Part shown: piece after piece, positions 1,570-17,750 of the stretch
Layout: each line of letters begins with the position of its first letter
Position numbering within the stretch: position 1 is the first letter of the stretch
Assembly: GCA_000997405.1 (NCBI GenBank)
Contig: LCBU01000002.1
Location: forward strand, 1,918 to 19,718
Direction of reading: 5' to 3'
Origin: Candidatus Woesebacteria bacterium GW2011_GWA1_41_7
GTDB lineage: Bacteria; Patescibacteriota; Microgenomatia; UBA8517
DNA length: 17,801 nt
Program-made: the position numbers and the translations under genes
Notes under the pieces: generated by a model
Database searches by the model: none
What the model was told of the DNA's origin: nothing
What the model saw: the letters and a program-made list of their open reading frames with translations, nothing else

Positions 1570-1597
1570 TATTCTTGGTAGTTATTAACACTATAAG

Positions 1598-2648: not shown

Positions 2649-2855
2649 CTAGGAAACCTCTTCGAGGAGAGCCCTTCGATATTTACTCGTTTTGAGGTTA
2701 TGGATAAAAATTCTTCCACACTTTACACATGTTATCTGTTCTCCGTATTTTGTCTTTTTAACCTTGCCATCAATTAGAGGTGTTCCACAACCCACACATC
2801 TTCCTTGCGAAAGCAACCAAGCCTGCATTGGAGCGATAATACTTTTAAACATCAT
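2649..2855 (-). CDS. Small zinc-ribbon protein of unknown function
   Basis: This 68-residue protein has two CxxC knuckles, C20-VG-C23 and C43-VK-C46, spaced as in a rubredoxin or zinc-ribbon fold. A basic C-terminus (KTSKYRRALLEEVS) follows. I do not recognise a named family; it could bind nucleic acid or act as a small zinc-bound adaptor. The frame can be extended to a TTG at 2891, but the double ATG at 2855/2852 is the better start: the upstream stretch contains an extended -10 promoter, and the extra residues look unlike protein. With that promoter the mRNA would begin 2-5 bases before the ATG. mltG follows 11 bases downstream, probably in the same transcript. Confidence 0.7.
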   Translation of the reverse strand: MMFKSIIAPMQAWLLSQGRCVGCGTPLIDGKVKKTKYGEQITCVKCGRIFIHNLKTSKYRRALLEEVS

Positions 2856-2864
2856 GTTATATAA

Positions 2865-2891
2865 AGTATAGCATGAAAGTCGTGTAGTCAA
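2865..2891 (-). promoter_or_regulatory. Extended -10 promoter for the zinc-ribbon gene and mltG
   Basis: On the minus strand, TGC-TATACT (-10 at 2870-2865) is preceded by TTGACT (2891-2886) with a short 15-base spacer. The -10 ends 9 bases before the ATG at 2855, so the predicted transcript is leaderless or nearly so. It overlaps the end of the short gap after ruvX. Confidence 0.65.
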
Positions 2892-2892
2892 G

Positions 2893-3255
2893 CTAGCTAT
2901 CCAACCAGTTTTGAAGCATTATTGCAGCTGCGTAAGCGTCCTCCATGTCGTGGCGTTTCTTTTGGCCAATTCCAGCCTCACGGGAAAGAATTTGTGCATC
3001 TTTTGTAGAAAGAGTCTCATCAAAAGTTTCCGCACCTATTCCCTTTGCAAATCTTTCCGATTCTTTTCCCATTTCTCCTTCTGAAACACCGACTACTACT
3101 TTTTCAATTTTTTCACTATCTATAATCTGTTTTATTTTTTCGTCAAGCATTCCGGCATTGGTGTATCTAATAACCCGCCACGGCTCCGCCAAGGGGCCTT
3201 CGGCTATTGCCAAACCCACCTTACTTCTTCCGTAATCAATTCCAAGCGTTTTCAT
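2893..3255 (-). CDS. ruvX: RuvX/YqgF-type RNase H-fold nuclease (pre-16S rRNA processing)
   Basis: YqgF-family proteins carry an RNase H-like fold and are implicated in maturing the 5' end of 16S rRNA; an older name links them to Holliday junction resolution. Starting from the ATG at 3255 the protein has 120 residues, shorter than the usual 135-150. Three acidic sites are present: Asp7 in GIDYGR, Glu80 in FDETLST and Asp106 in MEDAYAA. The VVVGVSEGEMG strand-loop (53-63) is shortened: the usual LP-DG-G loop is reduced to SEGEMG. An upstream in-frame TTG at 3270 is less likely, as it adds only five residues before the conserved MKTLGIDYG start. It lies 17 bases after the sortase stop and is probably cotranscribed with it. 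No Shine-Dalgarno sequence is visible. Confidence 0.9.
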   Translation of the reverse strand: MKTLGIDYGRSKVGLAIAEGPLAEPWRVIRYTNAGMLDEKIKQIIDSEKIEKVVVGVSEGEMGKESERFAKGIGAETFDETLSTKDAQILSREAGIGQKKRHDMEDAYAAAIMLQNWLDS

Positions 3256-3272
3256 AAAAAATACCAACAAAG

Positions 3273-3977
3273 TCAGTTAATAATAGCATTTTGGTCGGGA
3301 GGAACTACCCTTGCCCTAACCACCAATCTTTTTGGCTTTCTGGGATCACCCGGAGGTACGCAGGTTACAAGGGTAACAAAAGAGTCGCTGTCGTCCTGAT
3401 CCAAAACCTGGAGATCTGTCGGAAGTACCTCAAACATTTCTTCCACTTTATATGTATAAGACACCCCGTCGTAATTTATGTATATCGGATCTCCTTTTTT
3501 CAAGGTCGGAAGCATTGTAAAAATTGAGATGTAATTTTTGGGATTATTGAAAATAGGTAGTATTGAGTGACCGAAAATCGCGGCGTTTCCCCTTTTCCCG
3601 GGAAGCGCAGTCCCCGGATATTGGATTAAGCTTTTTGAAAGATCTTCGCCCCCAATTGCCACAGTTGCCGAATTAATTTTTAGCTTTGGAATACTGATTT
3701 CATAATAGGAAATAGTCGGTGCAGAAAAATCTTCTTCTTTTGCCCCACCTGTAAACCAGGTACTTGCTCTTGTGGTGTCGGATGTTCCCTTAGTTGGTGC
3801 AGTCAAAAATTCCTGGACCTGACTATCGGGATCGGCCAGAGGGGACACGAGTTTGGTATATTTCTGAGAATAGACCGAATCGTAACTCACAATCGGATAA
3901 ATAACCCCTATTAAAATTACTATGCCTGAAAGGCCTGATACAATGGCCGACAGGCGTAATACCGTTCTTTGCGTCAT
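3273..3977 (-). CDS. Sortase family transpeptidase
   Basis: Sortases cleave a C-terminal sorting signal of exported proteins and join them to the cell envelope or to each other. This 234-residue protein has an N-terminal membrane anchor (about residues 10-31), a linker, and a sortase beta-barrel from about 88. The catalytic triad is visible: His137 in AIFGHSI, Cys206 in TLVTCVPPG and Arg217 in KRLVVRAR. The TLxTC motif followed by a proline-rich stretch resembles class D/E enzymes more than class A or B, but I cannot fix the class. No LPXTG-type substrate is encoded in this window, so its targets must lie elsewhere. The ATG at 3977 follows a TAAAAT element by 7 bases. The gene ends with TGA, which supports the standard genetic code here. 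Confidence 0.93.
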   Translation of the reverse strand: MTQRTVLRLSAIVSGLSGIVILIGVIYPIVSYDSVYSQKYTKLVSPLADPDSQVQEFLTAPTKGTSDTTRASTWFTGGAKEEDFSAPTISYYEISIPKLKINSATVAIGGEDLSKSLIQYPGTALPGKRGNAAIFGHSILPIFNNPKNYISIFTMLPTLKKGDPIYINYDGVSYTYKVEEMFEVLPTDLQVLDQDDSDSFVTLVTCVPPGDPRKPKRLVVRARVVPPDQNAIIN

Positions 3978-3984
3978 GTCATCA

Positions 3985-3990
3985 ATTTTA
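3985..3990 (-). promoter_or_regulatory. Possible -10 element before the sortase start
   Basis: TAAAAT (5 of 6 to consensus) ends 7 bases before the ATG at 3977, in the 30-base gap after the previous gene. There is no TGN extension and no clear -35, so on its own this could be chance. It is listed because the spacing matches the stronger examples in the window. Confidence 0.35.
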
Positions 3991-4007
3991 CTATAAAAAG
4001 TGGAGCT

Positions 4008-6218
4008 TTATTCGGGCCTAATCATAATTAGGATATTTTTGGAAATCCGCGGAATGGTTTTAAGAGGTGGTGGGAACTTAATTTTTAGAGAAACATCAGC
4101 GTGATCAAATCCGGGAATTGCGTTAAGATGTTCCATAGCAACCGAACTGTTTTTGCCGATAATTGTGCTTTTAATTTTTTCTATATCTACATTCGGTAAG
4201 AAATTTCCTCCTACAACTACATCGTAGGTATATTTACCGTCCTCTTCGCTTACAAAAGTAAACTTGAAATCTATTTGTTCAGAAGAAAGCGAATAGTCTG
4301 TGGGGGCCTTGCTATTCAACATATTTTTCGCATAGTCCAATAATTTAGTTCTATCCGCAGCAAGCCCGGTTGCTCCAAGCTCAAGCGAAAGTTTAAGACT
4401 GTCAGCCTGGTCTCCTTCGTTACGATCATAGTTTTCTCTTGTAGGCTCAAGAGCGACCAGATCATCTACAAACACCTCACTCTCTGAAACTTTTCCTGAA
4501 AGGATCGTCTTCACATTCAGACTAAGCTCATTTGTTAGGTCTTCTTCCAATCTTGCCATATCATCTTTACTTACTGCCGAAATTTGCTGACTGCTTCCTC
4601 CGCCAAAATCCCCCGTTGAAGTCGCTGCAACCAGTGCCTTTGAATAATTTCCGACACTAAATACTTCGCCTTTGGCAAGATTATAGGCAGATCCAATATC
4701 AAATGCCGTAACATTTATTGTTGCTGTCCCGGGTGAACCCGGCAATAGCTGTCCGGAGACAGAGGCTTCTTTATCTGTCACAAATTTGAATCCGGAGGCC
4801 GAGGTTAAAATCGTACCCGAGGAGAGATTAATTGCGGTTCCATTTCCGTTGGCAATTTGCACACTTCCCGTTGCTTTGTTACCGATTAGTCTTGTGCCTG
4901 TTGTGGATTTTGTTTTTTCACCAGACACACTATCAGTCACAAGCCTTGCAGGGATAATACCACTACCCTGATCAAACTGACCGTTGCTATCAAAGATTAT
5001 CTGTACGTTTTCCTGGGTTCTTCTTGGGGTTACAAAAATAGTTATCTGGGCCGCCTGCACAAACCACCACAAAATTATGATCACCACAAGCACGGATCCT
5101 AATATGGCCAAAATTGCCGTCAAACCCTTGTTTTTGTTATAGGTACCGGTGCTTTTTCTCGAAAATATCTTAGAAAATGAATGAAATAAATTTTTTAACT
5201 TAGCTAAAAAGCCGGATGCCATGTTCATTGGCTTGATACTTGGTGCACCAACCATTTGCGGCCGGACAGACTGGGGGGAAAAGTCCGGAGCGCTTTGAAC
5301 AGGCGATACATTTTGGATATCCTCTTTTTTCATAGAAGAAACATCCTCGCCAACCGAGAAACCCAATGTTTCCGCAGAAGGAGGTTTCTGGGTTATCTGT
5401 CCCTCCTCGTCTTGTTTTTCTTCAAGATCCACCTCCTCTTCTTCACCCTCCTGACTTTTTACAACAGTCGTAACGTTTCCCATCTCAGCCCCACCCGCCA
5501 GGGCTGTTGCTAATACTTTTTTTTCGGTACTTAACACTTCGACCTGTGGTGTATGTAAAAAATTTATTTTCCCATCAGACCAATTTGTTTGGATCAACGT
5601 TTGTTTTACGTCTTCCAACTCTCCCTCTTTGCCGTCATAAACTATAAACCTTGTAGGAAGGGGGGAAACACCCTGGAACCTGGAAAGACCTTCAATCACA
5701 TCGTCAGACAAAGATACGCTTCTTGAAACTTCAGTTGTACCAACCAGCTCTCCAAGTTTAAATACGGAGAGTTCCAGGTTTTCGTTGCCGGACTTTAGAA
5801 CTATACCATTGAGCGGTGCACCTTCCTCGGATTTATAAAGATGGGCAATAGCCTCCGGCAGTACTACAAATCCAACAGGAGTTAGGGAAAGTTCTGCACA
5901 AAGTTTTTTTATCTTGCCCAAATTTTCAGAAGAAATCTCTCCATCTTTTACCCAAGACGTAGATACTCCAAAAACAGTTTTTTGAGGTTCGGGATAACTC
6001 TCGGGTAACTTTTGAATTGCTGACGACAAAGCGGCATCTGTTGCCTCTATCAACTCATCTTCGCTTTCCCAGGGAATACCGGCCCCAATTCCCAGAACTT
6101 CCGCTACCGAATCGCCAATATACCAAATTCCAGACTGAACCAATCCCTTTTCGATAACAAGCGCCCAAAAAAGTTCGGGGGGGTTTTCTTTACTTATTAA
6201 TAAATCTTTAATGTTCAT
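4008..6218 (-). CDS. Actin/PilM-like cytoplasmic domain joined by one membrane helix to a baseplate-J-like outer domain
   Basis: This is a 736-residue bitopic protein of unknown function. Residues 1-250 look like an actin-fold domain of the PilM/FtsA type: GVSTSWVKDGEI near 84-95, TPVGFVVLPEAIAHLYK near 113-129, then LPTRFIVYDG near 187-196 and ALAGGAEMG at the end. An acidic linker (255-274) and a basic amphipathic stretch (337-364) lead to one strong membrane helix (about 366-388). The outer part (390-736) includes a segment resembling the baseplate J/gp47 family (TGTRLIGNKATGSV...LSSGTIL, 440-471) and then mixed alpha/beta sequence without cysteines. It sits 23 bases after alaS with no promoter-like -10 or Shine-Dalgarno sequence near the ATG, so it is probably cotranscribed with alaS. 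By orientation the actin-like part would be cytoplasmic. I recall similar proteins being annotated only as baseplate J-like in CPR genomes. Domain assignments are from pattern memory; fusion to type IV pilus machinery is a guess. Confidence 0.75.
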   Translation of the reverse strand: MNIKDLLISKENPPELFWALVIEKGLVQSGIWYIGDSVAEVLGIGAGIPWESEDELIEATDAALSSAIQKLPESYPEPQKTVFGVSTSWVKDGEISSENLGKIKKLCAELSLTPVGFVVLPEAIAHLYKSEEGAPLNGIVLKSGNENLELSVFKLGELVGTTEVSRSVSLSDDVIEGLSRFQGVSPLPTRFIVYDGKEGELEDVKQTLIQTNWSDGKINFLHTPQVEVLSTEKKVLATALAGGAEMGNVTTVVKSQEGEEEEVDLEEKQDEEGQITQKPPSAETLGFSVGEDVSSMKKEDIQNVSPVQSAPDFSPQSVRPQMVGAPSIKPMNMASGFLAKLKNLFHSFSKIFSRKSTGTYNKNKGLTAILAILGSVLVVIIILWWFVQAAQITIFVTPRRTQENVQIIFDSNGQFDQGSGIIPARLVTDSVSGEKTKSTTGTRLIGNKATGSVQIANGNGTAINLSSGTILTSASGFKFVTDKEASVSGQLLPGSPGTATINVTAFDIGSAYNLAKGEVFSVGNYSKALVAATSTGDFGGGSSQQISAVSKDDMARLEEDLTNELSLNVKTILSGKVSESEVFVDDLVALEPTRENYDRNEGDQADSLKLSLELGATGLAADRTKLLDYAKNMLNSKAPTDYSLSSEQIDFKFTFVSEEDGKYTYDVVVGGNFLPNVDIEKIKSTIIGKNSSVAMEHLNAIPGFDHADVSLKIKFPPPLKTIPRISKNILIMIRPE

Positions 6219-6241
6219 TGTGGCAAGAAATTCAACAAACT

Positions 6242-8050
6242 TTATTTGATTGTTGCGTATAATCTGATAATTCCTGATCCTATTTTTTCCTGTTTAATTA
6301 TTTTAACACCACCGATCTCCCCTGTGTGCGTCACATGAGGTCCTCCGCATACTTCTTTTGAAAACCAAATCCCTTTTGGATCACCAACTGTATAAACCTT
6401 AACCTCTTGTCCGTACTTTTCGGCAAAAAAATGCATTGCCCCGGAGGCAATCGCATCAGGCAAACTCATCACAGAAAAAGTAACCGGTAAGTCTTCCGCT
6501 ATTTTCAAATTAATTAAATCCTCAATCTGACCGATTTCTTTGTCTGACAACTTTTGCTGGTTTGAAAAATCAAAACGTAGTCTTTCGTTTGTTATATGAC
6601 TGCCTTTTTGGCCAACGTGCTCTCCTAATACTTGTCTTAGGGCGGCGTGTAAAACATGTGTAGCCGTATGAAGTTTTGTGGTAATTTCAGATGCTTCTGC
6701 AAGTCCTCCTTTAAACATTCCCGCAGATGCCGAGCGTGAAGCGCTTTTGTGCTTTTCAAATTCTTCTTCAAAGGAGTTTTTCTCATCGCGTGTAAAATTC
6801 ATTCCATTTTGCTTTAGAATTTCCATGCTAAGTTCGAGTGGAAATCCTTCTGTTTGGTAAAGATCGAATGCAAATTTACCATCTATTTCCACACCTTCCG
6901 AAACTGCCCTGGTAAGCTTTGCCAAACCTCTTTTGAGAGCTGCTTCAAAACGTGTAGCCTCAGCGGTTAAATTTTCGTCGATAAACTGCCAGTTTTTGTC
7001 AACGTTCGGATAATATTTTCGGTACTCCTCCGCAATGTGAGAAACCGCACTTCCTGAAATTCCCGAACCCAAAAGATGAAAATGGAACATTGCTCTTCTA
7101 ACAAGTCTTCTTAGAACATATCCATGAAGTTTGTTTCCCGGAATTACACCTTCGGCCAATAAGTTTACAGCAGCCCTAAGATGATCAGCAATCACTCTAT
7201 AACTAACATCCTTAGAAATATCCGACCCGTAAAGCCGTCCCGTTTCTTTTTCAATTTTTCCGATAACACCCGAGAAAATATCAATTGCAAAAATGTCCGG
7301 ATTATTAAGAAGCGCTGCGGAAACTCTTTCAAGACCCCCTCCGAAATCGACATTCTTTTGGGGAAGATCAATCAGTTTGCCATCATCAGTTTTCTGATAC
7401 TGCATAAAAACGGAGTTACCTATTTCCAAAAACTTTCCACAATCACAATTAGGATGACAAAATGAACCAAACTCCGGACGGTGTGCTATGTCCTCAAACT
7501 CATAAAAAATTTCGCTATCCGGTCCGCCAATTTCCCCGGGGGGCATTTCCTGAGGGATACCGGCTCTACTCCACCAATTCTTTTTAGCATCGTAAAAATG
7601 AATGTGATTTTCGGGAACTCCTATTTTTTTCCAAATTTCAAACGATTCCGTATCTTTAGGAACTTCACCGTCTCCCTCAAATACGCTTACATGTAGTCTC
7701 TCGGAGCTAATACCAAGTTCCTCGGTATAGAATTTCCAAATCCATTTTAGCTGCTCCTCTTTAAAGTAATCTCCAAGACTCCAGTTCCCTAACATTTCGA
7801 AAAAAGTTGTATGACGGTTATCTCCAACTTCTTCCAAATCCTGCAAACGGAGTGACGGTTGAGAGTCGGCTAATCTTTTACCCTTTGGATGTTTTTCCCC
7901 TTTAAGATAAGGCACCAACTGTTGCATACCGCTACTTGTAAAAAGTGTCGTGGGATCGGAATCTATAACCAAAGGGGATGGTGTAATTTCAGCATGGTCG
8001 TTCTTTTTAAAGAAGTTTAAGTATTTTTCCCTAATTTCTTCCGTGCTCAT
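6242..8050 (-). CDS. alaS: Alanyl-tRNA synthetase, short form lacking the C-terminal domain
   Basis: AlaS charges tRNA-Ala with alanine and hydrolyses mischarged Ser/Gly-tRNA. At 602 residues it is much shorter than the usual roughly 870. The class II core is intact: TSSGMQQ near 38-44, motif 2 RHTTFFEMLGNWSLGDYF (79-96) and motif 3 GGGLERV (237-243), which replaces the more usual GMGLER. A Cys/His cluster at 198-204 precedes FLEIGNSVFMQ. The editing domain keeps its zinc motifs: His461-xxx-His465 and Cys568-GGP-His572. The protein ends about 30 residues later, so the DHHA1/C-Ala domain is missing; there is no sign of a frameshift, as the stop is followed closely by the next gene. The ATG at 8050 lies 6 bases after an extended -10 element. 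Confidence 0.97.
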   Translation of the reverse strand: MSTEEIREKYLNFFKKNDHAEITPSPLVIDSDPTTLFTSSGMQQLVPYLKGEKHPKGKRLADSQPSLRLQDLEEVGDNRHTTFFEMLGNWSLGDYFKEEQLKWIWKFYTEELGISSERLHVSVFEGDGEVPKDTESFEIWKKIGVPENHIHFYDAKKNWWSRAGIPQEMPPGEIGGPDSEIFYEFEDIAHRPEFGSFCHPNCDCGKFLEIGNSVFMQYQKTDDGKLIDLPQKNVDFGGGLERVSAALLNNPDIFAIDIFSGVIGKIEKETGRLYGSDISKDVSYRVIADHLRAAVNLLAEGVIPGNKLHGYVLRRLVRRAMFHFHLLGSGISGSAVSHIAEEYRKYYPNVDKNWQFIDENLTAEATRFEAALKRGLAKLTRAVSEGVEIDGKFAFDLYQTEGFPLELSMEILKQNGMNFTRDEKNSFEEEFEKHKSASRSASAGMFKGGLAEASEITTKLHTATHVLHAALRQVLGEHVGQKGSHITNERLRFDFSNQQKLSDKEIGQIEDLINLKIAEDLPVTFSVMSLPDAIASGAMHFFAEKYGQEVKVYTVGDPKGIWFSKEVCGGPHVTHTGEIGGVKIIKQEKIGSGIIRLYATIK

Positions 8051-8056
8051 GGCTAA

Positions 8057-8065
8057 AGTATATCA
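8057..8065 (-). promoter_or_regulatory. Extended -10 promoter directly upstream of alaS
   Basis: TGA-TATACT on the minus strand (TGA at 8065-8063, hexamer 8062-8057) ends 6 bases before the alaS ATG. It overlaps the region just before the stop of the upstream gene. No -35 is visible, as expected for an extended -10 promoter. Initiation would fall at or within a base or two of the start codon, so the mRNA is predicted to be leaderless. Confidence 0.6.
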
Positions 8066-8068
8066 TTT

Positions 8069-8302
8069 TTAGCCACCGTGGGTTTCGAGTTTCTTTCCTT
8101 TGTGGAGAATTTCCATAACTGAAGTAAGTTTATCCGGACGAATCAGTCCGCCACCCAAGATCGAATCTTCTAAAAGGCTATTTAGCCTTTTAACTGCGCG
8201 TCTGAGATCGATAATAATAAGCATAACTTGAAATCCAACCACAATAAGCAAGAAGGTAAGACTAATGACAACTACGATCAAAAGTGTTTGAACGGAATCC
8301 AT
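8069..8302 (-). CDS. Small single-pass membrane protein of unknown function
   Basis: This 77-residue protein has one long hydrophobic helix (about residues 6-31) followed by a basic amphipathic segment, DLRRAVKRLNSLLEDS (32-47). A short tail GGGLIRPDKLTSVMEILHKGKK follows. It has no cysteines and no catalytic-looking motif. The shape is similar to short DUF948-like proteins, but I do not assign it to that family. The ATG at 8302 follows an extended TGT-TATAAT element by 9 bases. The stop lies 18 bases before alaS. The compact placement and good hydrophobic pattern argue that it is a real gene. Confidence 0.7.
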   Translation of the reverse strand: MDSVQTLLIVVVISLTFLLIVVGFQVMLIIIDLRRAVKRLNSLLEDSILGGGLIRPDKLTSVMEILHKGKKLETHGG

Positions 8303-8311
8303 ATTCTAATT

Positions 8312-8320
8312 ATTATAACA
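8312..8320 (-). promoter_or_regulatory. Extended -10 promoter directly upstream of the small membrane protein gene
   Basis: TGT-TATAAT on the minus strand (TGT at 8320-8318, perfect hexamer 8317-8312) ends 9 bases before the ATG at 8302. The expected start site is 2-4 bases before the ATG. No good -35 hexamer is seen at 16-18 bases. Confidence 0.68.
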
Positions 8321-8375
8321 GCATTCAAAATCCTGAAATGTATTAAAAGTGAACTGAACTCTACGACTGACAATT

Positions 8376-8392
8376 AACAAATTAAATTTGTT
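8376..8392. repeat. Short AT-rich inverted repeat at the end of the RodZ-like gene
   Basis: AACAAATT (8376-8383) and AATTTGTT (8385-8392) are perfect inverted arms around one base, spanning the stop codon of the HTH gene. It could fold at the 3' end of the mRNA, but it has no GC in the stem beyond one pair and no U-tract, so it is a poor terminator. The 79-base gap that follows (8303-8381) otherwise holds only the promoter of the next gene. Confidence 0.35.
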
Positions 8393-9008
8393 GGATGCTA
8401 ATCTTGCGTACTATTGTTGTTTCCTTGCCCGAACGGGAAATAGCTTTAATAACAACTTCGGTTGCCTCCGATGAAATTTCTATATCAGTGGAGAATTTTC
8501 CCTCTTCATCAACCAATACCGGTTGGTTGTCCACTGTTATTTTTACGTCCATATCCGTCGAACCAAAAACCAAAACAGAATTCCCGTTTACAACTTGCCC
8601 CTCAGTCGGACTTACCAAATCAACTTTTGGCGGTAATGTAAATTTTATGTACTGAAAAGTCAAATATCCCAATATTACAACCGCCACTGATACAATTCCC
8701 AAAATAAAGGTTAGTTTTGGGTTCCAAGCTGGTTTCGAAGAGATATCCGGCTTTGGATTTATATTCAACTTCTTGGGAGGATAGTCGCGTCTCAAAACCG
8801 CAATTGTCATTTTCTCATCAATATCCAATGCCGAAGAAATACTTTTAATAAAACCCAATACGGTTGGAAAAGAAGGCAGAGACTGCCAATCTTCTTTTTC
8901 GATTGCCGTTAAGAAAGATGATTTTATTTTTGTAATTTCCTCAAGCTCCCCGTAGGAATATTTTTTCTCTTTACGGGCGTCTTCCATGATCTGACCTATT
9001 TTTTTCAT
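8382..9008 (-). CDS. RodZ-like HTH membrane protein
   Basis: This 208-residue protein has the layout of RodZ. It starts with an HTH_25-type domain (about residues 2-75, with IGQIMEDARKEKKYSYGELEEITKI and LPSFPTVLGFIKSIS). A linker and one membrane helix (about 99-122) follow, then an extracytoplasmic beta domain (about 128-208) of Ig/bacterial-filler type (PTEGQVVNGNSVLVFGST, NQPVLVDEEGKFSTDI). RodZ links MreB to the elongation machinery; no mreB is in the window, so the cell-shape role is inferred only from architecture and from the neighbouring ftsK. The outer domain looks more like a glucodextranase-B or Big domain than the classical RodZ DUF4115. The ATG at 9008 has no Shine-Dalgarno sequence and lies 11 bases after an extended -10 element. 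Confidence 0.82.
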   Translation of the reverse strand: MKKIGQIMEDARKEKKYSYGELEEITKIKSSFLTAIEKEDWQSLPSFPTVLGFIKSISSALDIDEKMTIAVLRRDYPPKKLNINPKPDISSKPAWNPKLTFILGIVSVAVVILGYLTFQYIKFTLPPKVDLVSPTEGQVVNGNSVLVFGSTDMDVKITVDNQPVLVDEEGKFSTDIEISSEATEVVIKAISRSGKETTIVRKISIQQI

Positions 9009-9019
9009 TGATTATCTAT

Positions 9020-9028
9020 ATGATAACA
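9020..9028 (-). promoter_or_regulatory. Extended -10 promoter upstream of the RodZ-like gene
   Basis: TGT-TATCAT on the minus strand (TGT 9028-9026, hexamer 9025-9020) ends 11 bases before the ATG at 9008, giving a predicted leader of about 4-5 bases. It sits in the 55-base gap after ftsK. No -35 match is seen. Confidence 0.5.
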
Positions 9029-9063
9029 GAGAGAGCAATTCTAGCTGCAGCTTTCATAAAAGT

Positions 9064-11172
9064 CTACTCAGTTTGAGGGTTGCCGAAAGAGGCTAAAAAC
9101 TCGTCAGCATTTTGTACCAACACCTCACGGGGTTTACTTCCCCCCTCTGACGCAGCAATTACTCCGGCGGCTTCAAGCTGGTCAACAATCCTTGCCGCAC
9201 GCGCGTATCCAATAGAAAGTCTTCGCTGAAGAAGCGACGCACTTGCCCTGTCATATTGGCAAACAACTCTAACCGCATCTTTAAACAGATCATCCACCGC
9301 CCCGTCTATACCCGGAACCGAAACTGTACCTGCTTTGGCCATTGTTGTTACTTCGTCCGTATACTGCGGATTCACACCTTGGTTCTTAAGAAAAGCTGTG
9401 AGCGCTGCAACTTCTTTGTCGCCAATAAATGCGCCCTGAATTCTCAGAGGTTTTGCCTGTTCAGGAGGAAGGTAAAGCATATCTCCTTTACCTAATAATT
9501 TCTCTGCACCCTGGGTGTCTAAAATAACTCTGGAGTCAACTTGAGATGCCACCGCAAAAGCAATTCTACTTGGAACATTTGCCTTGATAAGTCCGGTAAT
9601 AACATCCACAGAAGGTCTTTGTGTGGCTAAAACCATGTGTATACCTGTAGCACGGCTCATTTGGGCAATTCTCGTAATCGAGTCCTCTACTTCAACCGGC
9701 GAGAAAAGCATAATATCGGCAAGTTCATCAATAAAAAGAACTATATAAGGAAGTGCTTGGAAACCCGACATTTCGTTATAAGATTCGATATTCCTCGCCC
9801 CCGCCTGCGCAAAAAGTTTGTAGCGCCTATCCATTTCCGCCATTATCCAACGAAGCGCTGATAAAACCTTATCCGGTTCAACTATGACCGGAGAAAGCAG
9901 ATGGGGAAGCCCACCGTAACGAGTCAACTCGACCCTCTTGGGGTCAACTAATATAAGTTTTACTTCGGTTGGAGCAGCTCTAAAAAGAAGTGATATTAAA
10001 AAGGCATTTATACATACCGACTTACCTGAACCTGTCTGACCTGCAATTAACACATGTGGCATTTTTCCGATGTCTGCAACAATGGGTTTACCTGACACAT
10101 CCAGTCCCAAAGCAACCTGAAGTTTGGATTTTGCTCCCTGCATTTCCTGAGATTCCATGATTTTTCTGAGCGGTACAAATTCTGCTGACCGGTTGGGGAG
10201 TTCTATTCCCACAAGATTGCGTCCAGGAATCGGGGCTTCAATTCTGATGGTACCTGTAGGGGCCGAAAGCGCGAGTGCTAAATCACGTTCAAGTGATGTA
10301 ATTTTGGAAAGTTTTGTACCGAGTGCCACCTCGATAGCGTATTGGGTTACAGCAGGACCCAGGTTAACCTCAACAACATTTGCAGTTATTCCAAAAGACT
10401 CAAGAGTTTTTTCAATTGTTGCGGCATTGCCTTTTATATCGCCGCGTTCTGCATGTCCACCATCAACCTCTCCCAAAAGATCAATTGTCGGATATCTCCA
10501 AACAGTCTCTTCTCCGGGAATATTGCTGACAAGTTTTTGTTCCAACGGTTCTTTGGGAGCTGCCGGGGCACCCACCGTCGACTTGGCGTTTCCGGGAGAA
10601 GAAAAGTTTCCACCCGAAACTTTCATTTGACCCTTTGGCATTACCATGCCACCAACTTTTATCTGAGTTTTGTCACCATGTATGTAAACACCCGCTTGTC
10701 TGATAAATTCCTGAAATACTTTGTAAACCTGATCAATCGAAGTATTGAACAAAATGATTAGTCCGATCATCCCCACTCCCGTAAAGACAATTCCGGCTCC
10801 AACTCCCATTATAAGCTCAGCTATCGATCCCCAAACAATTTGTCCTGCTTCCCCTGCGCGTCCGAGCGCCATAACTGAAATAAAGAAAAGGAGTCCTCCA
10901 ACCACCACATTGGGTTGCCCTAAAATAAATTTAACCTTGGAAAGTAAAAGCGCAAATGAAAGAAAAATAAAGGGGAGAAAAATTGATGACCAGGAGAAAT
11001 ACTTCAAAAGAAAGTCGTTAAATTTAATAAAAATCATCCCCTGGCGGGAAAATGAGACTAAAATCAAGCCTGCAAAAATCACGAAGATTATTTGGGAAAT
11101 CGAGAACATCGACTCCTTCTTTAATTTCAACTTAAATGATCTTTTCGTGAATCTTCTTCTCTTCTTTGCCAT
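9064..11172 (-). CDS. ftsK: DNA translocase FtsK/SpoIIIE
   Basis: FtsK pumps DNA through the closing septum and acts with division and chromosome dimer resolution. Starting at the ATG at 11172 (MAKKRRRFTKR) it has 702 residues. Four to five membrane helices fill about residues 25-145. A short linker (about 165-225), the alpha/beta motor domain and a C-terminal gamma winged helix (about 625-690, with RASASLLQRRLSIGYARAARIVDQL) follow. Walker A is GQTGSGKS (378-385) and Walker B is IVLFIDELAD (about 477-486). The short linker is typical of SpoIIIE-like and CPR forms, unlike the long E. coli linker. The frame extends to a TTG at 11217 that would overlap RNase J, but the basic MAKKRRR start and a -10 element 9 bases before the ATG favour 11172. 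Confidence 0.96.
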   Translation of the reverse strand: MAKKRRRFTKRSFKLKLKKESMFSISQIIFVIFAGLILVSFSRQGMIFIKFNDFLLKYFSWSSIFLPFIFLSFALLLSKVKFILGQPNVVVGGLLFFISVMALGRAGEAGQIVWGSIAELIMGVGAGIVFTGVGMIGLIILFNTSIDQVYKVFQEFIRQAGVYIHGDKTQIKVGGMVMPKGQMKVSGGNFSSPGNAKSTVGAPAAPKEPLEQKLVSNIPGEETVWRYPTIDLLGEVDGGHAERGDIKGNAATIEKTLESFGITANVVEVNLGPAVTQYAIEVALGTKLSKITSLERDLALALSAPTGTIRIEAPIPGRNLVGIELPNRSAEFVPLRKIMESQEMQGAKSKLQVALGLDVSGKPIVADIGKMPHVLIAGQTGSGKSVCINAFLISLLFRAAPTEVKLILVDPKRVELTRYGGLPHLLSPVIVEPDKVLSALRWIMAEMDRRYKLFAQAGARNIESYNEMSGFQALPYIVLFIDELADIMLFSPVEVEDSITRIAQMSRATGIHMVLATQRPSVDVITGLIKANVPSRIAFAVASQVDSRVILDTQGAEKLLGKGDMLYLPPEQAKPLRIQGAFIGDKEVAALTAFLKNQGVNPQYTDEVTTMAKAGTVSVPGIDGAVDDLFKDAVRVVCQYDRASASLLQRRLSIGYARAARIVDQLEAAGVIAASEGGSKPREVLVQNADEFLASFGNPQTE

Positions 11173-11181
11173 ATCGAAATC

Positions 11182-11211
11182 ATTGTATATCGAAGTCGCC
11201 TTAAACCTCAA
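11182..11211 (-). promoter_or_regulatory. Promoter for ftsK overlapping the 3' end of the RNase J gene
   Basis: On the minus strand TTGAGG (11211-11206) and TACAAT (11187-11182) are separated by 18 bases. The -10 ends 9 bases before the ftsK ATG at 11172. The -35 lies inside the last codons of the RNase J gene. The predicted leader is 0-4 bases. Confidence 0.5.
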
Positions 11212-12859
11212 CAACAACCGGAAGGATCATGGGACGTCGCCCGGTCTTTTGGTGGAAAAAACGCTCAAGGAAATCAATTGTAATATTTCTGACAACATTA
11301 GCATTAATTGATTTTTTCTTTTGCAAAGCACGCGCAAGCTCCCCCGATGCATCCTCCAAAACACTGCCGTATTTTTGTTCAAATACAAAACCCCTGCTCA
11401 TGATTTCCGGTTTTTGTATAAGTGAGCTTTCGTTTCGGTCAAATTGAATTATTGCAATTACAACCCCTTCTTTAGAAAGAATGTGTCTATCTCTCAAAAC
11501 AACATTCCCCACATCTCCAATTCCAAGTCCATCAACCAGCACCTCTTTTACTGAAATCTTCCCTGTTCGTTTGGCAAACTGATTACTAAATTCAACAATT
11601 TCACCGGGTAAGAGTTCTAAGACGTTTTCTTCGGGAGCCCCCATCCTCTGGGCTATAAGACCATAAGCTCTCATGTGCCTGATCGTTCCCCCGATTGGGA
11701 TAAAGTATTTGGGCTTCACGAGAGCAAAAAGCATCTCAATATCCCCAATACTTCCATGCCCAGAAACATGCAAGTCTTCCTGCATATCGTAGTAGTGTAC
11801 ATTTACGTCTGCCTCAATCAGTTTATCCACCAAAAAATCTACATTAGCCTTGCTTCCAGGCGGGGCAGGATCTGAAGAGAATATAACAACATCCCCTTTT
11901 CCAATCGTCAGAAAGTCGTGTTCACCCATACAAAGTCGATATAAAGCACTGCCCGGCTGACCATAACTTCCCGAAATAATATAAAAAAGCTTCTCCGGTG
12001 GTAACCTCCCTGCTTGTTTTGATTTAATAACTAAATCATTGGGGTAAAATAAATATCCCAAATCTTTTGCAATTTGTGCTTTTCTCTCAATTGAGCGGCC
12101 GATCAAAACCACTTTCCTACCAAGTTTTGCAGCAATATTGATAGTCTGCTGCATGCGACTAATGTTGCTGGAAATTGTCGTAAGATATATTTTTCCTTTT
12201 ACACCATTGGCAACCGCTTCAATTCTCCCTTCAAGTGATAGTTCGCTTTCTGTATAGCCGGGGGTGTTGGCGCCAAGAGCATCCGAAGCCAGAGCTAAAG
12301 TACCCTGTGACGCTAATGTGGCCACTTTAGCTATGTCAAACGGTCTCTTGTCTACCGGCGTCCAATCAAATTTATAATCAGGTATATGGAAAATTTTCCC
12401 CTCTGGTGTGTCTATGCAAAAACCAACAGCATCGGGAACAGAATGGCTTACCCTAAATGGAGTTATCTTAAAAACGCCAAGTGTCAGAACATCTTGTTCC
12501 GGATTAAAAACTGAGATCTTTGGATTTTTAATGTCATAATCTTCAAATTTGTCCTGAATAAAACCGGCAACGAGTTTCGTGGAATAAATCGTAGCATCAA
12601 CATCTTTAAGAAGAAAAGGAAGACCTCCAAGGTGGTCTTCGTGGCCATGAGAAATAATTATTCCACGCAATTTATTTATGTTTTGCTTAATGTAAGAAAA
12701 ATCCGGAATAACAAGATCCACCCCAAACATTTCGCTCTCGGGAAAACCCACGCCGCAATCGACAACTATCATGTCGTTGCCGTATTCGTAAACATAGAGA
12801 TTCTCGGTTACCCCCGTGGTACCCGATATGGCAATAAACTTTAATTTATTTTGTGACAT
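11201..12859 (-). CDS. Ribonuclease J-like metallo-beta-lactamase/beta-CASP protein with altered active site
   Basis: RNase J enzymes degrade and trim RNA from the 5' end and can cut internally. This 552-residue protein has the full family layout: beta-lactamase core, beta-CASP insert, return to the core (about 355-420) and a C-terminal domain ending RRPMILPVVVEV. Metal motifs present are HGHEDH (71-76), His139 in RVSHSVPDAVG and Asp161 in HIPDYKFD, and the HVSGHG motif (364-369). However, the usual PVHGE motif reads PIGGT (388-392), so the histidine that binds the second metal is Gly390. The TGSQGEP loop is SGSYGQP (296-302) and the PGNE loop is PGSK (334-337). It starts 16 bases after the UDG stop, probably in one transcript. 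It is surely of this family; full nuclease activity is uncertain. Confidence 0.92.
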   Translation of the reverse strand: MSQNKLKFIAISGTTGVTENLYVYEYGNDMIVVDCGVGFPESEMFGVDLVIPDFSYIKQNINKLRGIIISHGHEDHLGGLPFLLKDVDATIYSTKLVAGFIQDKFEDYDIKNPKISVFNPEQDVLTLGVFKITPFRVSHSVPDAVGFCIDTPEGKIFHIPDYKFDWTPVDKRPFDIAKVATLASQGTLALASDALGANTPGYTESELSLEGRIEAVANGVKGKIYLTTISSNISRMQQTINIAAKLGRKVVLIGRSIERKAQIAKDLGYLFYPNDLVIKSKQAGRLPPEKLFYIISGSYGQPGSALYRLCMGEHDFLTIGKGDVVIFSSDPAPPGSKANVDFLVDKLIEADVNVHYYDMQEDLHVSGHGSIGDIEMLFALVKPKYFIPIGGTIRHMRAYGLIAQRMGAPEENVLELLPGEIVEFSNQFAKRTGKISVKEVLVDGLGIGDVGNVVLRDRHILSKEGVVIAIIQFDRNESSLIQKPEIMSRGFVFEQKYGSVLEDASGELARALQKKKSINANVVRNITIDFLERFFHQKTGRRPMILPVVVEV

Positions 12860-12875
12860 TCTAAACGTTTAATAA

Positions 12876-13505
12876 TTAAACCAAATTCATCTGTTCCGAT
12901 TCCGGAATCACTTTCTCTTTATTATCTTTCATTCTACGTAATATTTCCTTTAATTGATAGAAGTCGTTCTTTTCCGATTCTAAAATATTTCCGTTTCTAA
13001 GTGATGCTGCAGGATGGTACATTGGAATAATTACTATATCCTTGCCATTCCGGGTAACTACATGTTTTTTTCCATGGACACCACTGATGAATACATTGGG
13101 CAAAAATTTTGCCATTGAAAAACGACCTAAAGTGAGAACTATTTCGGGATCAATTATCTCAATGATTTCATCCAGATACTTCCCATATGCCGAAATTTCA
13201 TTTGCTTCGGGATCCCTGTTATCGGGAGGTCTGTGATGAACAATATTTGTAATGAACACACTCTTGCGATCAAGATTCGCAAGAGATAAAAACTTATCCA
13301 ATAACTTCCCCGCCTGGCCGACAAAAGGAAGACCCGTTTGGTCTTCCGTTCTTCCTGGGCCTTCCCCGATGCAAAGAATTTTTGCTTCCGTATTTCCTGC
13401 ACCAAAAACAAGTTTTGTTGCACCTTTCTTTAAAGGAAGCGAATCGTCTTTCTCCATTTTATCTTTTAACTCATGAAGTAATTTATATTTATTTGTTTTA
13501 GTCAT
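12876..13505 (-). CDS. Family-4-like uracil-DNA glycosylase without Fe-S cluster cysteines
   Basis: This protein should remove uracil from DNA, starting base excision repair. The ATG at 13505 gives 209 residues, a normal family 4 length; the longer open frame to 13601 adds sequence inside the previous gene and is unlikely. Family 4 motifs are clear: GEGPGRTED (47-55), GLPFVGQAG (58-66), RPPDNRDP (92-99) and HPAASLR (164-170). Family 4 enzymes normally hold a 4Fe-4S cluster with four cysteines. Compared with the Thermotoga enzyme from memory, the positions are Asp20, Leu23, His91 and Tyr107 here, and the only cysteine is the unrelated Cys45. The start overlaps the end of the upstream phosphodiesterase by 8 bases, suggesting coupled translation. 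Confidence 0.88.
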   Translation of the reverse strand: MTKTNKYKLLHELKDKMEKDDSLPLKKGATKLVFGAGNTEAKILCIGEGPGRTEDQTGLPFVGQAGKLLDKFLSLANLDRKSVFITNIVHHRPPDNRDPEANEISAYGKYLDEIIEIIDPEIVLTLGRFSMAKFLPNVFISGVHGKKHVVTRNGKDIVIIPMYHPAASLRNGNILESEKNDFYQLKEILRRMKDNKEKVIPESEQMNLV

Positions 13506-13974
13506 ATTTTTCACTAATAAATTCAATGCTATTATTTTCCGTTTCATAGATTGCAAAATTAACACCGTTAATAACCGCTCCGGGACGAACAAATTTAACA
13601 AAATCTACCATTTTTTCTTCCTTTGAATGATAATGCCCGCTAATAAGCACATCCAAGCTCTCAAATCTTTTATCGTTTATTAATGCCTTGTGGATTATGC
13701 CAATCTTCCGCCCGTCAATTTCAATTTTCAAAAAATCGCGGTCAAAACCCTTTGTGTTGAGTGTTAAATATTCTTCCATTCCTTCGTCAATATCGGCATT
13801 TCCCATAACCGTATATAGAGGAACTCCAAACTCTAAAACAGTTTTAACTGATTCGATTGTATTCCAATCACCTGCATGAATTACGGCAGAGATGTCGTAT
13901 TTTTTTACAAAACCCATTATATGCTTCAGGTTTGCAATATGCCCATGTGAGTCAGATATGACAAGTGTCCGCAT
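13498..13974 (-). CDS. YfcE/MJ0936-type metallophosphoesterase
   Basis: This is a small calcineurin-like phosphodiesterase of 158 residues, the normal size for the YfcE/MJ0936 group. All metal motifs are visible: DSHG (8-11), HAGD (33-36), GNAD (58-61), His95 in GIIHK, and GHYH (113-116). The protein ends with the usual RPGAVINGVNFAIYE strand pair. These enzymes hydrolyse phosphodiesters in vitro, but their true substrate is often unknown; 2',3'-cyclic nucleotide or RNA ends are possible in this RNA-decay neighbourhood, though that is a guess. The ATG at 13974 follows a TAAAAT element by 5 bases. It heads a likely transcript with the UDG gene and RNase J. Confidence 0.9.
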   Translation of the reverse strand: MRTLVISDSHGHIANLKHIMGFVKKYDISAVIHAGDWNTIESVKTVLEFGVPLYTVMGNADIDEGMEEYLTLNTKGFDRDFLKIEIDGRKIGIIHKALINDKRFESLDVLISGHYHSKEEKMVDFVKFVRPGAVINGVNFAIYETENNSIEFISEKYD

Positions 13975-13979
13975 ATACT

Positions 13980-13985
13980 ATTTTA
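13980..13985 (-). promoter_or_regulatory. Possible -10 element before the phosphodiesterase gene
   Basis: TAAAAT ends 5 bases before the ATG at 13974, within the 35-base gap after the Lon-like gene. The spacing to the ATG is the shortest of the set and there is no TGN directly before it, so this is a weak example of the leaderless pattern. Confidence 0.3.
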
Positions 13986-14009
13986 ACTCATGTAGGCAAC
14001 GCCGGCACA

Positions 14010-15056
14010 TTATTGAGGCAGAAACTCCCTGACATTCTCTGAAGTAACATGAATCGACTGAGCTTTACCCTCAACTATTATTTTTGCGACCTTCCGAACG
14101 ACTCCGTCAATGTTGCGCTCAAGAGTCCTAATCCCGGCATCGTACCCCAAAGGGCGCACTATACTTACCCAAACATCATCATCAATTACCAAACTGCCAC
14201 TGGGAATTCCCGCAGCTTTCATTGATGCGGGAAGTGTATATTGTTGGGCAATCGTAATTTTCTCCTGATCAGTGTAGCTGGGCATAGAAATCGGTTCAAG
14301 CCTGTCCATTACAGCCGTCGCAATATTTGTGGTGTTGTTGGCGGTTGTAACAAACAGAGTTTCAGAAAGGTCGAATGGAAAATCAATATAATGATCGCTA
14401 AAAGCATGATTCTGTTTAGGGTCCAGCAGTTCCACCAAAACACCCATTATTGATGCACGCCCGGCATCGGTTACTCTGTCAATCTCATCAAGAAGAATAA
14501 CCGAGTTTTTGCTTTGAGTGTCTCTCAAAGACTTAATAATCTTTCCGGGTTCGGCCTCAGGGTGCATTCTACTTTGCCCACGAAGATCCAAGGGATCTCC
14601 CATTCCTCCGAAAGGTATTCTGGCGATGGGGCGCCCCAATGCTTGTGCAATCGAATAGGCAATCGTCGTTTTTCCGGTACCCACCAAACCCACAAAGCAA
14701 AGGATCGGTGCCCGGTAAATATCAGCTCCCTCACCTTTCTCCTGTTTAAGCTTCATGACAGACATATATTCCAAAATACGGGTTTTTATGTCAGTCAGAC
14801 CAAAGTGATTGGTTTCAAGAATTCTTTTAGCATTTTCGAGGTCAAGGGTATCCTGAGTTCTTTTATTCCAAGGGAGAACTGTAATCCAATCAATGTATTT
14901 TTCCATCCTATCAAACTCCGGTAAAAAGGATGGTGAATTTGTCAATTTTGAAAGCTGGTTAAGACGGACCAACACCCTTTCACGGAGTTTCTCCGGTAGG
15001 TCCACATTCTTAACTTTTTCTATCAAAGTAAGTATTTCTTGGGCAGCAGAATCCAT
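14010..15056 (-). CDS. Lon-type AAA+ ATPase lacking the protease and N-terminal substrate domains
   Basis: Residues 50-348 match the middle of Lon closely: YIDWITVLPWNK (54-65), NHFGLTDIKTRILEYMSV (83-100), PILCFVG-LVGTGKTT with Walker A at 123-131, VILLDEIDR (186-194), LLDPKQNHAFSDHYIDFPFDLSE, TTAN as sensor 1, DRLEPI with the arginine finger at 252, and a sensor 2 Arg310 in DAGIRTLERNI. The protein stops at REFLPQ, where Lon would continue into the Ser-Lys protease; no protease sequence lies in the 35 bases before the next gene. The N-terminal substrate-binding domain is also absent. In the pore loop, the usual RRTYIGAMPG reads SRMHPEAEPG (162-171), losing the aromatic residue. It is most likely an ATP-driven remodeller, not a protease. 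The ATG follows an extended -10 element by 6 bases. Confidence 0.9.
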   Translation of the reverse strand: MDSAAQEILTLIEKVKNVDLPEKLRERVLVRLNQLSKLTNSPSFLPEFDRMEKYIDWITVLPWNKRTQDTLDLENAKRILETNHFGLTDIKTRILEYMSVMKLKQEKGEGADIYRAPILCFVGLVGTGKTTIAYSIAQALGRPIARIPFGGMGDPLDLRGQSRMHPEAEPGKIIKSLRDTQSKNSVILLDEIDRVTDAGRASIMGVLVELLDPKQNHAFSDHYIDFPFDLSETLFVTTANNTTNIATAVMDRLEPISMPSYTDQEKITIAQQYTLPASMKAAGIPSGSLVIDDDVWVSIVRPLGYDAGIRTLERNIDGVVRKVAKIIVEGKAQSIHVTSENVREFLPQ

Positions 15057-15062
15057 AAATCT

Positions 15063-15071
15063 AGTGTATCA
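15063..15071 (-). promoter_or_regulatory. Extended -10 promoter directly upstream of the Lon-like gene
   Basis: TGA-TACACT on the minus strand (TGA 15071-15069, hexamer 15068-15063) ends 6 bases before the ATG at 15056, inside the 23-base gap after pnp. A transcript from here would be leaderless. Confidence 0.5.
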
Positions 15072-17393: not shown

Positions 17394-17663
17394 TTATTTA
17401 TCTAGCTTTAACTCTGTGAGGAGTTTCTTGTAACGTTCCTCATCGCGTCTGTGTAAGTAGGAAAGGAGCCTTCTCCTTTTTGCTACCATTGAAAGCAAGC
17501 CTCTGCGCGAATGAACGTCTTTTTTATGTTCTTTAAGATGCAAAACCAATTTGTCGATTTTTATTGAAAGAAGCGCAATTTGAACCTCAGGAGAACCAGT
17601 ATCGCCTTTTTCTCGAGCAAATTTTTTTATTACGTCTACTTTTTCGTCTTTTGCTAATGCCAT
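17394..17663 (-). CDS. rpsO: 30S ribosomal protein S15
   Basis: S15 binds 16S rRNA early in 30S assembly, near the central three-way junction. The 89 residues match the usual length and carry the family core: GDTGSPEVQIALLSIKI (about 20-36), LKEHKKDVHSRRGLLSMVAKRRRLLSYL (about 43-70) and RYKKLL near the C-terminus. It is followed after 7 bases by pnp, the classic rpsO-pnp arrangement. The ATG at 17663 has no Shine-Dalgarno sequence; instead a hairpin ends 12 bases upstream. An out-of-frame ATG lies 8 bases upstream of the start and is not used for this frame. In other bacteria S15 often represses its own translation through its leader, which may apply here. Confidence 0.98.
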   Translation of the reverse strand: MALAKDEKVDVIKKFAREKGDTGSPEVQIALLSIKIDKLVLHLKEHKKDVHSRRGLLSMVAKRRRLLSYLHRRDEERYKKLLTELKLDK

Positions 17664-17721: not shown

Positions 17722-17750
17722 ATCATACCACACCTGAGTTCAAAACGCAA
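17722..17750 (-). promoter_or_regulatory. Extended -10 promoter of rpsO-pnp
   Basis: On the minus strand TTGCGT (17750-17745), a 17-base spacer and TATGAT (17727-17722) are seen, with TGG just before the hexamer (an extended -10). The predicted start is near 17715, giving a leader of about 50 bases, one of only two clear leadered transcripts in the window. Confidence 0.65.

Follow-up and report, generated by a model that had tools for sequence, protein, structure and literature searches.

Putative extended -10 promoters adjoining start codons suggest leaderless or near-leaderless transcription in a Woesebacterium and in other bacteria of the candidate phyla radiation

Candidatus Woesebacteria bacterium GW2011_GWA1_41_7 (GenBank assembly GCA_000997405.1), a member of the candidate phyla radiation (CPR), is represented by a metagenome-assembled genome (MAG) of 548 kb in 54 contigs. 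A stretch of 17,801 nucleotides from it (17.8 kb; contig LCBU01000002.1, positions 1,918 to 19,718; in the following "the window") raises the question of where mRNAs begin when the -10 hexamer of a putative promoter lies so close to the ATG that hardly any leader is left. Sixteen genes, from rpsO to rpoB and all on the minus strand, were followed in the window, and for eight of them an earlier note had described such a hexamer. The answer, which we consider very probable, is that we are dealing with promoters of the sigmaA type, many of them of the extended -10 class (TGN before the hexamer) and some with a -35 box, which are placed such that transcription would start on the start codon or within about 5 nt of it. 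What the sequence itself shows is the element and where it lies, the TGN and -35 sequences that accompany it, a preference for leading genes in pooled counts and recurrence in the CPR.

The genome was sampled with 20 of the 54 contigs (three of them trimmed to 20 kb) plus the window, in total 265,250 bases. Gene starts were predicted from the coding score only (5-mer model), the upstream motif not being used in choosing them. Hexamer positions are those of the first base counted from the start codon, −12 meaning that there are 6 nt between hexamer and ATG, and a near-consensus element is a TANNNT hexamer with at most one mismatch to TATAAT. A gene is called leading when the gap upstream of it is >15 nt (excess tables and pooled tests of the CPR sets); in the dinucleotide-shuffle tests leading and internal genes were separated by gaps of ≥40 and <25 nt, in the analyses of in-frame ATGs and of gaps the cut-off was >25 nt, and in one further count it was ≥25 nt. 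Genes without an upstream neighbor, with less than 60–100 nt upstream or containing N were left out of the counts. Four CPR sets were compared: the genome itself, 12 other genomes of the same class, the named loci, and 14 other genomes of the same phylum. The named loci are 73 of 80 relatives (the short-contig loci L033, L046, L060, L061, L063, L064, and L078 were left out), sorted into Microgenomates, Paceibacteria-type and Saccharibacteria by the taxon name on record. All p-values are descriptive; neither genes from the same genome nor related loci can be counted as independent.

The deciding test named in the earlier note was a genome-wide peak of TANNNT near −12 to −15 relative to composition-matched controls, and this peak is present in the 265 kb sample as well as in relatives. 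In the genome itself, TANNNT is found at −16 to −11 before 0.49 of the leading genes versus 0.16 in the background (n = 141), the corresponding values for internal genes being 0.15 versus 0.08 (n = 72), and near-consensus elements are found at 37/141 leading versus 4/72 internal genes. TANNNT has its maximum at −12 (28 hexamers) and the near-consensus hexamer at −14 and −12 (17 and 16 of 227), with 0–9 at positions upstream of −22. When the last 20 bases before the leading genes were dinucleotide-shuffled, 45/115 genes with the motif contrasted with 23.2 ± 3.2 in the shuffles. The class-wide excess at leading genes (15–39%) is probably a lower bound, since errors in the predicted starts blur the peak.

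On inspection of the window, all eight hexamers and their distances to the ATG proved exact, as did the TGN extension at five of them (zinc-ribbon, membrane, alaS, Lon-like, and RodZ-like genes). The elements are the following, orthologue counts referring to TANNNT at −16 to −11.

2865..2873, minus strand: extended -10 element TGC-TATACT, 9 nt before the ATG of the zinc-ribbon gene (A at 2855); found in 4/6 orthologues.
2886..2891, minus strand: TTGACT, -35-like (5/6 matches), 15 bp before the zinc-ribbon -10 element; TTGACT-15 bp-TATACT is also found in the Woesebacteria relative L024.
3985..3990, minus strand: -10 element TAAAAT without TGN, 7 nt before the ATG of the sortase gene (A at 3977); orthologues 4/7.
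8057..8065, minus strand: extended -10 element TGA-TATACT, 6 nt before the ATG of alaS (A at 8050), predicted to be strictly leaderless; orthologues 60/79.
8312..8320, minus strand: extended -10 element TGT-TATAAT, 9 nt before the ATG of the small membrane gene (A at 8302); orthologues only 1/4.
9020..9028, minus strand: extended -10 element TGT-TATCAT, 11 nt before the ATG of the RodZ-like gene (A at 9008), predicted to give a short leader rather than a leaderless mRNA; orthologues only 3/10, L024 being without it.
11182..11187, minus strand: -10 element TACAAT, 9 nt before the ATG of ftsK (A at 11172), with TTGAGG 18 bp upstream; orthologues 6/9, with TANNNT at −40 to −35 in 5/9.
13980..13985, minus strand: -10 element TAAAAT without TGN, 5 nt before the ATG of the phosphodiesterase gene (A at 13974); in L024, where the only orthologue was found, TATAAT stands 6 nt upstream of the ATG.
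15063..15071, minus strand: extended -10 element TGA-TACACT, 6 nt before the ATG of the Lon-like gene (A at 15056), predicted to be strictly leaderless; orthologues 6/7.
17722..17730, minus strand: TGN-TATGAT, 58 nt before the ATG of rpsO (A at 17663; hexamer start −64, with TG before it), candidate leadered promoter and contrast case.
1590..1595, minus strand: TATAGT, 20 nt before the ATG of rpoB (A at 1569), candidate leadered promoter and contrast case; there is also a TATAAT with hexamer start −87.

Near-consensus hexamers at −17 to −11 are found before 7 of the 16 starts, whereas 1000 dinucleotide shuffles give 0.97 on average and 5 at most; hexamers preceded by TGN are found before 6 of the 16 (shuffle mean 0.27, maximum 4). 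One of these six, TAATTT before the uracil-DNA glycosylase (UDG) gene, falls within the coding sequence upstream and probably arose by chance. At the other 279 same-strand ATGs in the window there are 32 TANNNT, 7 near-consensus and 1 TGN-preceded hexamers. Two genes, rpsO and rpoB (the latter behind a gap of 117 nt), have no start-adjacent element, their promoter-like hexamers being located farther upstream; perhaps they are leadered, regulated genes. For three genes of the window the longest open reading frame (ORF) begins with a TTG upstream of a likelier ATG (zinc-ribbon, 2855–2891; ftsK, 11172–11217; UDG, 13547–13601). In the case of zinc-ribbon and ftsK the -10 element lies between TTG and ATG, so that longest-ORF annotation would place the start codon upstream of the promoter.

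That the hexamer is a promoter element rather than any AT-rich sequence is indicated by its companions. In the 13-genome class set, TG occupies the extended -10 position in 31% of the peak hexamers, the values being 3–13% at neighboring positions and 12% for distant hexamers, and a TTGACA-like box (4 of 6 matches) is found at a spacer of 17 bp in 32/213 cases, with 6–18 cases at other spacers between 10 and 26. The same holds for each of the four CPR sets, both for TG (genome itself, 13/41 versus 1.4 expected; 12 other class genomes, 52/166 versus 8.4; named loci, 113/240 versus 13.3; 14 phylum genomes, 48/124 versus 6.0) and for a -35 box at 16–18 bp (13/41 versus 5.2, 49/166 versus 24.4, 47/240 versus 22.8, and 30/124 versus 15.0, respectively). 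This does not mean that TGN is the rule: it is found on a minority of the near-consensus peak elements, namely 31–47% across the CPR sets. Among the exact permutations of three A and three T, TATAAT is top at −14 to −11 in all four sets (13 versus a background of 0.6 in the genome itself); the second one, ATAATT (in the three larger sets; joint second in the genome itself), is TATAAT shifted by one base, and ATTATA and AATATT with one mismatch do not rise at −12. AT-richness would not produce these marks of a sigma-70 promoter, namely TGN (as had been proposed), the -35 box at 16–18 bp and the top rank of TATAAT in the four sets; the AT-rich L. salivarius is negative (see below). The HxxE motif of sigma region 3 is the contact of the extended -10 element. 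SigmaA with IPVHM(V/I)E and a region-4 C-terminus was found in 7/11 loci, the remaining 4 having been read on the wrong strand, and a search of 12 genomes for sigmaA region 3 gave a match in 10, all but G000 and G038; a partial region-2 match at the end of contig C47 of the genome itself may be a cut RpoD.

Transcription usually begins about 7 nt past the -10 hexamer. The modal hexamer start is −12, i.e., 6 nt before the ATG, in three CPR sets (75/213, 100/243, and 42/85), so that the first transcribed base would be the A of the ATG. It is possible, although rather unlikely in our view, that the RNAs start 2–5 nt before the ATG or at scattered positions, in which case they would carry ultra-short leaders and not be truly leaderless. 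Indeed, hexamer starts at −14 to −16 are common (39, 23, and 26 of 213 at −14, −15, and −16 in the class set), near-consensus hexamers in the genome itself are as frequent at −14 as at −12, and the elements of the window at 9–11 nt imply a leader of 2–5 nt if transcription starts 7 nt past the hexamer. Against this stands the mode at −12 in three sets; moreover, ultra-short leaders would have no space for a Shine-Dalgarno (SD) sequence either, so that for the ribosome the consequence would be much alike.

The element goes in part with the position of a gene in its transcription unit. Besides the genome itself, near-consensus elements are more frequent at leading than at internal genes in the pooled 12 other class genomes (129/577 versus 37/286), the named loci (203/802 versus 37/375) and the 14 phylum genomes (108/614 versus 16/181), albeit not in every single genome. 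As a function of the gap (13 class genomes), the element is found at 8% of the genes overlapping the upstream gene and at 7% of those with gaps of 0–5 nt (background 3%), and at 18–38% of those with gaps of ≥6 nt (background 3–7%). In addition, it distinguishes in-frame from out-of-frame ATGs near gene starts, both in the class (190/1132 versus 15/584; Fisher p about 2e-21) and in the named loci (239/1276 versus 17/622; Fisher p about 3e-26). In the window, the genes without an element (pnp, UDG, RNase J, baseplate-J-like, ruvX, and mltG) were said to sit directly behind another gene, and the gaps of 7, 11, 16, 17, and 23 nt plus one overlap of 50 nt bear this out. The genes with an element, too, have a neighbor upstream on the same strand, at a distance of 18–79 nt; the contrast within the window is therefore one of degree. 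The further proposal that the elements mark transcription units holds in part: in the pooled 13 genomes they are rare at overlaps and 0–5-nt gaps, but some head genes are without one, and there are genomes whose internal genes reach the scores of the leading ones.

On the translation side, SD sequences (AGGAGG-like, at −16 to −4) are barely above background in the genome itself, both at leading (0.04 versus 0.02) and at internal genes (0.21 versus 0.18). They are above background in E. coli, L. salivarius and the CPR genomes G096 and G064, of which the latter two show strong SD use (0.45 and 0.36 of the leading genes) beside a weaker leaderless signal, indicating that the mode of initiation varies within the CPR. 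SD 4-mers precede 0.9% of 213 element genes versus 15.9% of 863 other genes, a difference that arises in part by construction, half of the SD window being taken up by the hexamer. The exact anti-SD sequence GGNTCACCTCCTTT is present in 33/59 genomes, counted by match alone and not by the 16S end, the 8 hits in G089 being mostly repeats of another sequence. The 16S 3′ region was matched in 17 of 34 further genomes; of 10 ends read, 9 have CCTCC and 1 has CCTCT. The CCTCT end is that of L233 (genome G062) and points to a possibly degenerate anti-SD in one CPR genome. The assembly of the genome itself contains no 16S. Matches to bS21 (E ≤ 0.001) are found in 25/27 genomes, the own one included (22 above the curated cut-off; none in G033 and G106), S1-domain matches in 27/27, and IF3 in 57/59. 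S1-domain frames other than PNPase-sized ones occur in 26/27 genomes (370–487 amino acids; 244 in the genome itself, at a contig end), G052 having a PNPase-sized frame only. Loss of the anti-SD as a general cause is rejected because the anti-SD is kept in relatives, and so is loss of bS21 or bS1, given bS21 in 25/27 and S1 domains in 27/27 genomes. With anti-SD, bS21, S1-domain proteins and IF3 all kept in relatives, the SD machinery appears to be retained and leaderless starts to be additional.

The S1-domain frames bear on a second alternative, namely that the motif is not a promoter but an A/T-rich translation-initiation signal, serving bS1 binding or low structure at the start codon, both of which have been discussed for non-SD genes elsewhere. 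Internal genes, too, have A-rich upstream regions and in some genomes show an excess, and for AT-rich biases the two readings could not be told apart in the available text of an earlier study (Nakagawa, 2017; PMC5397173). A translation signal would leave unexplained why TGN stands precisely where sigma-70 promoters have it, why there is a -35 box at 16–18 bp, and why internal genes, which are equally in need of such signals, score lower in the four pooled sets. We therefore hold it to be very improbable.

The excess at leading genes is widespread in the CPR. It is positive in all 12 other genomes of the class (+0.15 to +0.35), with p < 0.05 in 11; the exception is G052 with p = 0.056, whose stretches contain much masked sequence (coding fraction 0.42; apparent GC content of 0.21, probably from runs of N). 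Among the named loci, TANNNT is found at 0.59 versus 0.20 in Microgenomates (n = 73), 0.43 versus 0.11 in Paceibacteria-type (n = 490) and 0.37 versus 0.17 in Saccharibacteria (n = 19, from two loci). In the phylum, 11 of the 14 other genomes show an excess, with p < 0.05 in 7; it is strong in G059, G073, G087, G100, and G106 (+0.28 to +0.37) and modest in G080 (+0.15, p = 0.004), G096 (+0.11, p = 0.04), and G064, G103, G110, and G093 (+0.10 to +0.12, p between 0.05 and 0.09). No leading-gene excess was found in E. coli, L. salivarius, Thermomicrobium and Synechocystis (all but E. coli as plasmid stretches), and the near-consensus element was found in these four non-CPR controls at 0/131 leading and 0/50 internal genes; in the wider count of ATGs it was found at 1/96 in E. 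coli and at 1/45 in-frame and 4/38 out-of-frame ATGs in L. salivarius. Thermus (+0.20) and D. deserti (+0.11), again plasmid stretches, are positive with TANNNT alone, the near-consensus hexamer being found in just 2/63. AT-richness is rejected as the cause, since the SD-using L. salivarius with 33% GC has TANNNT at 0.06 of the sites versus 0.26 in its background and the CPR genome G073 with 62% GC at 0.43 versus 0.07. Thus chance, AT-richness or an artefact of start choice, for which the small excess over shuffles in some single genomes and the window's loose TANNNT count could be quoted, can practically be dismissed in the face of these two genomes and of an in-frame to out-of-frame ratio of about 6–7.

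For alaS, the analysis of conservation covered 79 of the 80 loci, 78 of these having an ATG. TANNNT is present at −16 to −11 in 60/79 orthologues versus 15/79 at −40 to −35, and the near-consensus hexamer at −16 to −10 in 23/78 versus 9/78 in the wider stretch −40 to −25; the 23 include all eight loci from Woese-, Gottesman-, Davies-, Roizman-, and Levybacteria. The closest alaS relative is from Candidatus Woesebacteria (CP066686, 73% identity), followed by Gottesmanbacteria, Daviesbacteria, Woesebacteria and then mainly Parcubacteria-type and other CPR. When the window genes are pooled without alaS, 25/44 orthologues of element genes have the element versus 12/39 of element-less genes (p = 0.027), the latter pool consisting of the six genes named above. 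The baseplate-J-like gene, which is without an element in the window, has orthologues with one in 4/7 cases; for rpoB the count is 4/9 and for rpsO 0/2. As to the products, the Lon-like ORF (14010–15056) has only 348 amino acids, roughly the size of an AAA+ module, and alaS of the window (6242–8050) only 602, the 80 CPR relatives matching across nearly the same length. AlaRS from E. coli has about 876 amino acids, and by comparison the CPR enzymes look C-terminally shortened.

There are several points that weigh against the elements being start-adjacent promoters, or against their generality. In the window, the loose TANNNT count at −17 to −11 (9 of 16 starts; shuffle mean 3.8) does not exceed every shuffle (maximum 10), there is just one good -35 box, at the non-optimal spacing of 15 bp, and the elements of the RodZ-like and the membrane gene are poorly conserved in orthologues (3/10 and 1/4). 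Pyrimidine at −1 and preference for ATG, the marks expected of a start on A, are not specific to element genes. TAATAT with at most one mismatch rises at −12, too (40 versus 51 for TATAAT), which is because both hexamers share TAAAAT as a one-mismatch hexamer. Among single genomes, the shuffle excess of the bases −20 to −1 is small in leading genes of G041 (9 versus 7.1) and G037 (18 versus 12.4), there is little or no excess in G068 (+0.06), G077 (+0.02), and G078 (−0.02), and the internal excess equals or surpasses the leading one in G017 (+0.27 versus +0.15), G043 (+0.21 versus +0.18), G007 (+0.19 versus +0.19), and G110 (+0.34 versus +0.11), where internal promoters or wrong starts could be responsible. 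Finally, the coding-score caller put several window starts wrong or missed them, and the background windows fall partly within upstream coding sequence.

If the elements are start-adjacent sigmaA-type promoters, RNA polymerase would start about 7 nt past the hexamer and generate mRNAs with a 5′-AUG or a leader of 1–5 nt. Without pairing to an SD, such mRNAs would be taken up by 70S ribosomes, or by 30S subunits together with IF2 and fMet-tRNA. Genes inside operons mostly have neither the element nor a clear SD and would be reached by coupling or re-initiation; for those without SD, translation by coupling is what we infer as the simplest account. The result would be a mixed system, with leaderless initiation as one of the major routes for first genes, mixed because relatives retain the SD apparatus and some CPR genomes make more use of SD.

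By its sequence layout, the arrangement is the TA-led leaderless type known from Deinococcus-Thermus, predicted here for the CPR. TA-led leaderless genes were defined in an analysis of 953 bacterial genomes (Zheng, 2011; PMC3160421) by a Pribnow-like signal some 10 bp upstream of the start codon, with a dinucleotide-shuffle test and a link to operon-proximal genes; likewise, CPR genomes have a -10-like hexamer at a fixed short distance above shuffles and, in pooled counts, its concentration at operon-proximal genes. The CPR seem not to have been covered in that analysis, the words TM7, candidate and phyla being absent from its text. In Deinococcus it was found experimentally that a -10 motif adjoining ORFs drives leaderless genes, about 30% of the ORFs by the authors' own count, the -35 element being optional and enhancing; as far as the accessible part of the article goes, its domain-wide scan excluded species that are symbiotic or not clearly classified (Zhong, 2025; PMC12340547). 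The layout with TANNNT a few bp before the ORF as -10 element is the same (Zhong, 2025; PMC12340547), and Thermus and D. deserti are positive for TANNNT also in our counts. There are differences: in the CPR 31–47% of the elements are extended by TGN versus 0 of only 2 near-consensus elements in the Deinococcus-Thermus stretches, and most CPR genomes use SD less at leading genes than these stretches do. Bacteroidetes and Cyanobacteria, with non-SD initiation, resemble the CPR in that only a small fraction of their genes has an SD and that the region from about −20 to −10 is biased toward A and T, but there, going by the available text, it could not be decided whether a promoter or an S1 site is behind the bias (Nakagawa, 2017; PMC5397173), whereas in the CPR it has TGN and -35 companions. 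No report on leaderless genes in the CPR was found by title or abstract in the open-access literature; subscription papers and preprints lie outside of this search, and absence is therefore not proven. In those papers from the search whose text was consulted, leaderless mRNA surfaces only in connection with YchF or in reference lists.

Whether (near-)leaderless initiation from extended -10 elements is what first genes use by default in most of the CPR, perhaps even the ancestral state, with SD use being secondary or regained in some families, is a question for which we put the chances at about even. Our confidence in this wider generalization, and in the start-adjacent promoters themselves, is not higher because in the phylum sample only 7 of 14 genomes are significant and because internal genes score high in some genomes. 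If the promoters are what they appear to be, gene starts and expression rules of the CPR would need re-reading, and a -10-to-ATG model would be the one to apply when starts are predicted in CPR MAGs. Short TGnTATAAT-N6-ATG promoters could then take the place of SD leaders in expression tools for CPR epibionts. The CPR would also be a natural test of small ribosomes starting on 5′-AUG mRNAs, and the finding would bear on the antiquity of leaderless initiation in bacteria. Should the CPR-wide generalization be true, the CPR would be among the largest leaderless lineages of bacteria, minimal cells that nevertheless still have the SD machinery.

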